DNA from: Synechococcus sp. WH 8109
Lineage (GTDB): Bacteria > Cyanobacteriota > Cyanobacteriia > PCC-6307 > Cyanobiaceae
Assembly: GCF_000161795.2 (NCBI RefSeq)
Contig: NZ_CP006882.1
Coordinates: forward strand, 1,612,001 to 1,676,000
DNA: 64,000 bases
Direction of reading: 5' to 3'
A model generated the notes under the pieces. It was not told where the DNA came from, did not search any database, and saw only the letters and a program-made list of their open reading frames with translations. Positions 48,521-51,372 of the stretch are shown here, in pieces; position 1 is the first letter of the stretch, and the number at the start of each line of letters is the position of its first letter. The position numbers and the translations under genes were made by a program.

Positions 48521-50068
48521 TCAGTCCTCGGTGGAGACGCCGCGGGCAATGCGCGACAACTCGCTGCGCTCATCGGTGGTGACCCGATGGGGCACACCGG
48601 AAATGATCCGCTCGAAGTTGGAGAAGGAATCCTTGATCTGAGGACCATTGCCCGTGATCACAAATTCGCGGATGCCCTTGTCGTGCCATGAACCGCGCAT
48701 CTTGAAAACGTTGAGGGCGCGGGCCATCTCCCCGCGGATCTCCACGTACTGCAGCAGCAGGATCGTGTCAGTGATTGTGGAGATGTGGGAGTCGGTGATC
48801 GAATGGCTGCCCATGAACTCCTCGGAGGTGTTCGTGAAGAAGCCGGCGATCTCCTCCTGCTTGGCGTAACCGGTCACCCCGATCACGAACTGACGGAAGG
48901 CGTTGTGGCTCACACCGCGCGCCAAGGCCGAAAGGGAGTCGATCGCCATCCGCGACGGTTTGAACTGGCAGATCTCCGTCTTGATGATCTGCAGGTGATC
49001 CTCAAGGCCCGTGGATTCGGGATAGGCGCAAATGATCTTGAGCAGCCCGTCCTGCTCCATCTGCTCGAAGTCGATGCCCCAGCTGGTGCCGTTGCGCAGC
49101 AGCTGAGCCCGCGATTCCTCATAGGCAAAAAGGATCGCACGTTCCTTGTTGCGGCAGGCGTCTTCGAGGAATTTGGAGACGAGCATCGTCTTGCCCGTTC
49201 CAGTGGCTCCGGTGGCCAGGATGATCGAGTCCTTGAAGAAACCACCGCCGCACATGTCATCCAGGCGCGGCACGCCGGAACTGACCCGGACGTTGGAGGA
49301 CCGCTGGGTTAGGCGCATGGCCCCAAGGGGGAAGATGCTGATGCCGTGGGTTCCCATCGTGAACGGGAACTCGCCCTTCATATGGGTGGTGCCCCGCAGC
49401 TTGAGAATCTCAAGGGTGCGCCGACGCCGCTCTCCCTCGAGCACGTTGCGCAGAATCACCACGTTGTCGGACACAAATTCCTCAACGCCGTAGCGGGCGA
49501 TCGGGCCGTACTCGTCGATCCGTTCGGTGGTCATCACCGTGGTGACGCCGATTTCCTTGAGCCTCGCGATCAGCCGAAAGATCTCACGACGCACCACAAA
49601 CACAGCGTCGTACTGCTGGAACACCGCCGTGATCGAGTCGATAGCAACCCGCTTAGCCTTGTATTTGCGGATGGCGTAGTTGATCCGCTCGATCAAACCA
49701 GAGAGATCAAAACTGCCGGCCACGTCCTGGCCGTCCGGATCCGGTGAGGCGTCAAGGATGAAAAGTTTGTCCTGCTCGACCATCTCCTGCAGGTTCCAGC
49801 CGAAACTGGCGGCGTTGCGCAGGATGTCGAGGGGCGATTCCTCAAAGGTGACGAAGATGCCGGGTTCGTCGAACTGCTTGATGCCGTTGTGGAGGAAGTG
49901 CAGCGAAAACACCGTCTTGCCGGTGCCGGACGTGCCGCTGATCAGCGTGCTGCGGCCGATCGGCAGGCCGCCCTGGCATACATCATCAAAGCCCTCGATC
50001 CCTGTCGGGAGCTTTTGAACCTGCATCTGAGGCTGACCGCTGGTCGGGGGGAACTGCATGACAACCAC
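48521..50068 (-). CDS. kaiC: Circadian clock ATPase/autokinase KaiC
   Basis: 515-residue double-RecA ATPase. CI Walker A LISGTSGTGKTVFSL and CII Walker A ILATGATGTGKTMLVS are present. The CII phosphorylation region SHSITDSHISTITDTILLLQ carries the Thr/Ser/Thr residues known to be phosphorylated in S. elongatus, and the C-terminal A-loop and KaiA-binding tail (ERIISGVPHRVTTDERSELS) are retained. Nothing suggests inactivation. Third gene of kaiA-kaiB-kaiC, 56 bp after kaiB. Confidence 0.98.
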   Translation of the reverse strand: MVVMQFPPTSGQPQMQVQKLPTGIEGFDDVCQGGLPIGRSTLISGTSGTGKTVFSLHFLHNGIKQFDEPGIFVTFEESPLDILRNAASFGWNLQEMVEQDKLFILDASPDPDGQDVAGSFDLSGLIERINYAIRKYKAKRVAIDSITAVFQQYDAVFVVRREIFRLIARLKEIGVTTVMTTERIDEYGPIARYGVEEFVSDNVVILRNVLEGERRRRTLEILKLRGTTHMKGEFPFTMGTHGISIFPLGAMRLTQRSSNVRVSSGVPRLDDMCGGGFFKDSIILATGATGTGKTMLVSKFLEDACRNKERAILFAYEESRAQLLRNGTSWGIDFEQMEQDGLLKIICAYPESTGLEDHLQIIKTEICQFKPSRMAIDSLSALARGVSHNAFRQFVIGVTGYAKQEEIAGFFTNTSEEFMGSHSITDSHISTITDTILLLQYVEIRGEMARALNVFKMRGSWHDKGIREFVITGNGPQIKDSFSNFERIISGVPHRVTTDERSELSRIARGVSTED

Positions 50069-50124: not shown

Positions 50125-50490
50125 TTAAGGATCTGAAGAAATCGTCGTGTCGGTCTCCTCATCGACCGCATCGATCAAGCTCGAATTGAGCGATGTATCA
50201 GACAGCTCGTCGTAAAGCAGATCCAGACCGATCAGCACCCTCTCCCGATCGGAGAGATCGCCGATGATGCGCCGCACCGGCGGGGGAAGAATTTTGGACA
50301 ACGTCGGCGTTGCCAGGATCTTGTCTTCCTCAGCCAGTTGGGGATTTTTGAGCACGTCAATCACCTTGAGGGCATACACCCCCCGGAATTCGGTCTCGAG
50401 AATGTTGCGCAGCGTTTTCAACGCCCGCATCGAATTGGGCGTGTTGCCCGCCACGTAGAGCTTGAGGATGTAGGTCTTGCGGGGACTCAT
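50125..50490 (-). CDS. kaiB: Circadian clock protein KaiB
   Basis: 121 residues with the thioredoxin-like KaiB fold: [40 protein letters not shown] and [20 protein letters not shown] with the cis-proline region. It exceeds the ~102-residue S. elongatus form by an acidic C-terminal tail ([20 protein letters not shown]). The ATG overlaps the stop of the out-of-frame kaiA 3' part by 4 nt (ATGA), as expected when kaiA is intact. Confidence 0.97.
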
Positions 50491-50693
50491 GACGACTCCT
50501 CCGAGGCATCGAGCTGATCCGTCGGGCGACGTACACGGCTGGAAGCCGTGCCCGACAGAGGAATGTCCGGCGGAATGGAGCGCCGGTACATCTCACACAG
50601 ATGCGCCATCACATCCAGAAGCGCAAGGCGGTAATCCTGAAGAAAGTCATGTTTGTGGCCCTCCAAACTCAGTTGTTTCCAGAATTCATCGAT
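50487..50693 (-). pseudogene. kaiA: Out-of-frame C-terminal part of kaiA
   Basis: 68 codons plus a stop that continue KaiA homology in the -1 frame relative to the kaiA ORF: IDEFWKQLSLEGHKHDFLQD, then [20 protein letters not shown], matching the last helices of KaiA, followed by a short tail. It lacks its own start near the break and overlaps kaiB by 4 nt. One extra A at minus-strand position 50694/50693 accounts for the separation from the upstream ORF. Confidence 0.85.
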
Positions 50694-51372
50694 TCAGATC
50701 CACGTGGATCTCAACGGTGCGGGTGATCGGCAGATCACTGAAAAAAGCAGTGTTGACGAAGCTTTCCAAGGCCTGATTGGCCGCGGCCGGATCGCTGAAA
50801 TAACTCGCCAGCAGGTCCCGATAGGTGCGTTGGAGCGACAGCAGCAGATCCCGGCGCTCCCCAGGGGGCAGGCTGCCCAGGAAGCGGGATGGATCCCGCT
50901 TGTAGAAGACCCCTAGGTAGCCGAGTCGCTCCTGCAGGCGATCGGAGAGATTGCTGACGGCGCGGGAGGAGGAGCTGCTTTCGTCCTGGCGTCCATCGGC
51001 ACGACCCTGGCGCAGAAAACGCGAAATGGCCGCGTCAACGTTGTATCCCAGCTGGGCCAGCTGGTCGTCGGGCAGATGCAACTCCTCGGGGTGGTAGTCC
51101 ACCTGCCCCTTCACCTCCCCAACGATCACGGCGGGGAAAAGCAGACCCGACGCCAGCAGTTGCTCCTTGGCCTCAGCATCGAGCAGGCTCTGCTCGAGCA
51201 CCACAGCGTCAAAGTCGTTCTGCCGAGGTCCGAGAACAGCCGCCAGGGTCTCCCCAGGATCAACCGTCAGAACAACAGACTCGTAACGGTTGGCCGGCAG
51301 CCAGGGGCGGCAGGCTTCAACCAAGGCTGGGCTGGCCAGCACGAGAGCAACAGTGAGGGCCGGCCTGGCCAT
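50686..51372 (-). CDS. kaiA: KaiA, truncated by a one-base frameshift
   Basis: 228 residues: an N-terminal pseudo-receiver (ALTVALVLASPALVEACRPW, DAVVLEQSLLD), a linker, then part of the KaiA C-terminal domain (SDRLQERLGYLGVFYKRDPS, RTYRDLLASYFSDPAAANQA, VNTAFFSDLPITRTVEIHVD). It then ends after LNR. Intact homologues continue with IDEF-type sequence, which is present in another frame downstream. Restoring the frame by removing one base gives a protein of 294 residues, a normal length. KaiA stimulates KaiC autophosphorylation; loss of the last helices removes part of the dimer/KaiC-binding domain. A sequencing error is the alternative. Confidence 0.88.
   Translation of the reverse strand: MARPALTVALVLASPALVEACRPWLPANRYESVVLTVDPGETLAAVLGPRQNDFDAVVLEQSLLDAEAKEQLLASGLLFPAVIVGEVKGQVDYHPEELHLPDDQLAQLGYNVDAAISRFLRQGRADGRQDESSSSSRAVSNLSDRLQERLGYLGVFYKRDPSRFLGSLPPGERRDLLLSLQRTYRDLLASYFSDPAAANQALESFVNTAFFSDLPITRTVEIHVDLNR

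Follow-up and report, generated by a model that had tools for sequence, protein, structure and literature searches.

A single extra base splits kaiA beside intact kaiB and kaiC in the genome record of Synechococcus sp. WH8109

Introduction

Mutants of Synechococcus elongatus that lack kaiA are arrhythmic. In the S. elongatus system, KaiC is described to dephosphorylate without KaiA (PMC6070526), and in Prochlorococcus MED4 a modified A-loop allows KaiC to phosphorylate in the absence of KaiA (PMC5520375). In KaiA-less strains, a glutamine replaces the arginine at the second A-loop position of KaiC1, and the residues that interact with KaiA are poorly conserved (PMC5520375). The KaiC of Prochlorococcus cycles with light and stops under constant conditions (PMC6070526). 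Truncated KaiA proteins have been described as well: mostly in Nostocales, KaiA is N-terminally shortened (PMC5520375). Moreover, changes in the clock pathway can arise in culture, as a sasA mutation became fixed in a long-term evolution experiment with S. elongatus (PMC12435244).

Here, we compare with these systems the kaiABC cluster of Synechococcus sp. WH8109, which lies in a window of 64,000 nucleotides (G000:C1:1612001-1676000, where G000 denotes the genome carrying the window, a single contig of 2,111,515 bases). We take G000 to be WH8109, as the positions published for petB of this strain's record CP006882 (440919-441575; PMC10100653) hold in G000 a 657-base frame, from ATG to stop, whose product was recognised by eye as cytochrome b6. 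The original prediction, made from the DNA letters, was that kaiA is split by a one-base insertion next to intact kaiB and kaiC, and that the strain would resemble Prochlorococcus in its damped, hourglass-like timing.

Results

The kaiABC cluster of WH8109

The features of the cluster are collected in Table 1. The open frame of kaiA ends with VEIHVDLNR, directly followed by the stop codon. In an alignment with ten relatives, a single inserted A at window position 50694 is the sole insertion column; the extra A sits in an AA pair on the minus strand, and position 50693 is equally possible (the row of one relative, L040, is misaligned here, but L040 itself reads through in frame). Removal of one base yields a frame of 885 nt, i.e., 294 residues and a stop, which equals the length in the loci L033-L036. 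A profile search of the genome likewise places Pfam KaiA positions 1-80 in the first frame and 80-121 in the next, with the junction at G000:C1:1662692/1662693. The split by one base and the 294-residue protein that its removal restores are thus both confirmed. Compared with the unbroken KaiA of three relatives, the two halves agree at 97 and 97% (G033), 97 and 96% (G029), and 95 and 99% (G002), so that chance is no concern. No second kaiA was found in G000 with a Pfam model search of the genome, and a search for phage records with near-identical DNA gave no match.

Table 1. Features of the kaiABC cluster in the window (coordinates on the forward strand)
Feature	Position	Strand	Remarks
Open part of kaiA (228 aa), covering the N-terminal domain of KaiA and roughly two thirds of the C-terminal one	50686..51372	-	stop TGA 50688-50686; Pfam KaiA_N 49.6 bits, KaiA 87.9 bits (profile 1-79 of 122)
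AA pair with extra A	50693..50694	-	ten aligned relatives one letter shorter here
Remainder of kaiA, next frame, to TGA	50487..50692	-	KaiA profile 80-121, 65.5 bits; alignment
ATGA overlap of normal kaiA stop and kaiB start	50487..50490	-	4 nt; premature stop ~200 nt upstream of overlap
kaiB, 121 aa, intact	50125..50490	-	Pfam KaiB 102 bits; protein identical in G033, G029, G002
kaiC, intact, 513 aa from ATG (515 from GTG at 50068)	48521..50062	-	SITDS phosphosite motif, A-loop ERIISGVPHR

For a functional KaiA, an N-terminal pseudo-receiver domain and a complete dimerisation/KaiC-binding domain in one frame would be expected. The former is present (PF21714), while the latter (PF07688) is divided between the two frames at the insertion. 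The end of the C-terminal domain is indeed lost, as had been predicted: the last matched residue before the break aligns with residue 240 of a 284-residue solved KaiA chain, which we take to be the S. elongatus protein. This leaves about 44 residues of the solved C-terminal domain without a counterpart; in terms of the gene itself, 68 residues are swapped for two. The KaiA of an intact relative aligns as far as residue 282-283 of the same chain. In solved complexes, the lost KaiA helices carry the contacts for dimer formation and for the KaiC tail. In addition, the position of the new stop relative to kaiB implies that any translational coupling between kaiA and kaiB would be lost.

The expectation that kaiB and kaiC are intact beside the broken kaiA was borne out by open frames and Pfam matches, and the predicted 4-nt overlap of kaiB with the out-of-frame kaiA stop was found as well. 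An overlap of this ATGA type is common to 33/80 relatives' loci (best 80 of 93). The KaiC tail is the same in G000, G033, G002 and G029, and among these four genomes two KaiC residues are unique to G000, Leu in place of Ile and Cys in place of Ser. The A-loop reads ERIIS in all 55 matching loci of the 80 (the other 25 do not cover the region or do not match the pattern). A second KaiB-domain match in G000 lies in a 394-residue frame at 1483648, which is probably SasA.

Comparison with relatives

The original prediction had proposed a comparison with kaiA of close relatives, and this comparison isolates WH8109: the extra A, and with it the break of the frame, occurs in none of the best 80 of 93 loci found in the genome collection (0/80). 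The motif AHLCEMYRR is read through in frame in 78 of these 80; of the remaining two, the contig of L051 ends just before the motif, and L061 encodes a full-length protein without its exact form. Among the same-genus relatives (n=33 of 147 relatives), 32 have a single stop-free KaiA match over profile positions 1-121 or nearly so, and the one genome without a match, G018, is 63% complete. Eleven of the 32 were checked directly as excised loci, and all eleven are open through AHLCEMYRR.

Substitutions were counted on both sides of the break against L033, the closest locus among the best 80 of 93. The upstream part shows a pS of 0.188 and a pN of 0.014, and the downstream part a pS of 0.084 and a pN of 0.006, the latter values being based on five changes (4 synonymous, 1 non-synonymous). 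Against L034, L035 and L036, the downstream part differs by 10 and 1, 5 and 3, and 5 and 1 synonymous and non-synonymous changes, respectively. Judged by these substitutions, the part of kaiA beyond the break is still conserved with no sign of decay, which suggests that the lesion either arose recently or does not exist.

Elsewhere in the family, a possible remnant of kaiA appears in three genomes, in which kaiB lies near a short or damaged match to the KaiA C-terminal domain with no KaiA_N match (G061:C29:99178-99696, G081:C56:102488-102984 and G040:C6:25031-25680). The match in G061 has two internal stops, TGA and TAG, and with WH8109 KaiA as query, G040 alone among the three is matched, weakly. 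A kaiA remnant has been described in large Prochlorococcus, a group which these three genomes would fit in size; they are possible older losses of kaiA, and nothing new is claimed for them. In G107, the KaiA match is split over two contigs (G107:C6:231025-231699 and G107:C21:84626-84832), and a TGA interrupts the latter piece; a contig break or an insertion may be the cause.

Other frame breaks in the genome record

Frame breaks were surveyed in four genomes (G000, G033, G029 and G002) over 400 kb around kai. In G000, 207, 224 and 227 conserved genes were tested with G033, G029 and G002 as query genomes, respectively. The first count was noisy due to 5' extensions and antisense ORFs. A stricter count, which required intact orthologues in both other genomes, gave three broken genes in G000, none in G033, two in G029 and two in G002. 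By a third-position test, which asks for a coding-like substitution pattern on either side of a break, failing sites were dropped (two in G000, more in the others), and three sites passed in G000, one in G033, three in G029 and one in G002.

The three breaks that passed in G000 concern kaiA, a DEAD-box/DSHCT helicase and an RNA pseudouridine synthase, the latter two outside the window. The kaiA break is backed by all three query genomes. The helicase (924 aa) is broken at residue 775 (G000:C1 ~1590092), on which all three queries agree as well; the site reads C9 in G000 versus C7 plus A, C8 and C8 in the relatives. The pseudouridine synthase is broken near residue 100 (G000:C1 ~1499142), where G000 has CCC versus CCCC in G029 and G002; this break is backed by the G002 query, and the gene is intact in G033 and G029.

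In the comparison genomes, the breaks lie in an integrase-like gene (G033) and a PLD-like gene (G002), both named by eye. Two of the G029 breaks (1953087 and 1987240) were set aside, as the query begins in the leader 5' of an intact gene, and the third (2113747) falls in no clear gene. The excess in G000 thus amounts to 3 versus about 1, and it vanishes if the two set-aside G029 sites are counted; the contrast between housekeeping-like genes in G000 and integrase-like or PLD-like genes in G033 and G002 was drawn post hoc. Three breaks versus about one hint at indel errors in the G000 record but do not prove them.

Extending the survey to 800 kb with three genomes gained almost no genes, since the second 400 kb of G000 is inverted and lies elsewhere in the relatives. 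Two 6-kb probes from this part (G000:C1 1062001-1462000) hit G033, G002 and G029 with both their order and their strand reversed, which implies a large inversion between G000 and these three genomes.

Discussion

The most probable reading, to which we assign a probability of about 0.52, is that the kaiABC cluster of WH8109 is normal except for an isolated, very recent one-base insertion in kaiA, with an error in the record slightly likelier than a true allele. In other words, the locus has the appearance of one new lesion, caused by a sequencing error or by a mutation of the culture not long ago, and not of a clock that evolved to do without KaiA. Sequencing errors often fall in homopolymer runs such as C runs, and two of the three breaks in G000 lie in runs of C, which argues for an error; kaiA and the other single-base breaks might then have a technical cause in common, and the strain would have an ordinary KaiABC clock. 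Against an error speaks that the G000 record consists of one contig and is 99.99% complete, and that the insertion in kaiA turns an A into AA outside any long homopolymer. The sequencing method of CP006882 was not found in the literature searched, as far as excerpts of it go.

The extra base may also be a genuine null allele that arose recently in the sequenced culture, perhaps under long culture in steady light, a reading that we consider quite conceivable, though less likely than not. The break removes everything beyond residue 240 of 284 in the solved KaiA, and the KaiC A-loop, ERIIS, is of the type that uses KaiA. There is also a precedent for a clock-pathway mutation born in culture, although the gene in the S. 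elongatus experiment is sasA and not kaiA, and the mutation came to light when the whole genomes of an evolved population were sequenced (PMC12435244). The further single-base breaks in the same record count against a real allele. The way in which such an allele might act is likewise plausible at somewhat less than even odds: KaiA without its last helices could not properly dimerise or bind the KaiC tail, KaiC would be under-phosphorylated, and the free-running rhythm would be lost. The early stop may additionally lower KaiB by breaking the translational overlap between kaiA and kaiB. The stronger version of this reading, in which WH8109 is a true kaiA null with unadapted KaiBC, i.e., a KaiA-less marine Synechococcus at the outset of a loss that has run its course in Prochlorococcus, we regard as less likely than not. 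The literature searched contained no paper naming WH8109 or WH 8109 together with kaiA, and none on WH8109, judged by title, for kaiA and frameshift in Synechococcus.

If the loss of KaiA were real, the analysis indicates that it should lead to low KaiC phosphorylation and arrhythmia, not to an hourglass, and WH8109 should resemble a kaiA-null mutant. This state is expected since KaiC of WH8109 is of the KaiA-using type and S. elongatus KaiC dephosphorylates without KaiA. The likeness to kaiA-null S. elongatus would thus lie in the clock state, the difference being that those mutants are engineered and belong to another species. The N-terminally shortened KaiA, known mostly from Nostocales, shares with WH8109 the truncation, but retains the C-terminal part, which is exactly the part that WH8109 KaiA loses (PMC5520375).

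With Prochlorococcus, WH8109 has in common that kaiB and kaiC are kept without a full KaiA frame (PMC6070526, PMC5520375), and the predicted likeness in timing did not hold up beyond this point. Prochlorococcus has lost kaiA, and its KaiC has changed so that it works by itself, whereas in WH8109 one inserted base breaks a kaiA that is otherwise conserved, and the A-loop of KaiC, ERIISGVPHR, has arginine instead of glutamine at its second position (PMC6070526, PMC5520375; the glutamine rule is that of PMC5520375). It is therefore highly improbable that an evolved, Prochlorococcus-like timer without KaiA is present in the WH8109 lineage. Loss of kaiA does seem recurrent in the family, as a KaiA match is absent in 39/148 genomes (some of them incomplete) and G061, G081 and G040 have a damaged or short KaiA beside kaiB, but KaiB of WH8109 is unchanged, its KaiC tail is that of three relatives, and 32/33 same-genus genomes are intact. 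The conservation of both kaiA halves might instead point to a programmed frameshift or to recoding of another kind, by which the split frame would still give full-length KaiA. Such a mechanism would be expected to show a break conserved in relatives as well as a slippery site with a stimulatory structure; here, the break is private to WH8109 among the best 80 of 93 loci, the sequence CTGAATCGATGA contains no slippery run by inspection, and the local RNA fold barely beats shuffles (z -0.67), which makes recoding very unlikely.

Unless the base is confirmed, the matter is an ordinary one. An erroneous base would mean that a core clock gene of a reference strain is misread in the record. WH8109 serves as a host in cyanophage experiments (PMC8776855); with a real extra base, phage studies on this WH8109 stock would have relied on a strain without working KaiA. 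The strain would then show the state of a clock right after the loss of kaiA, before KaiC has adapted.
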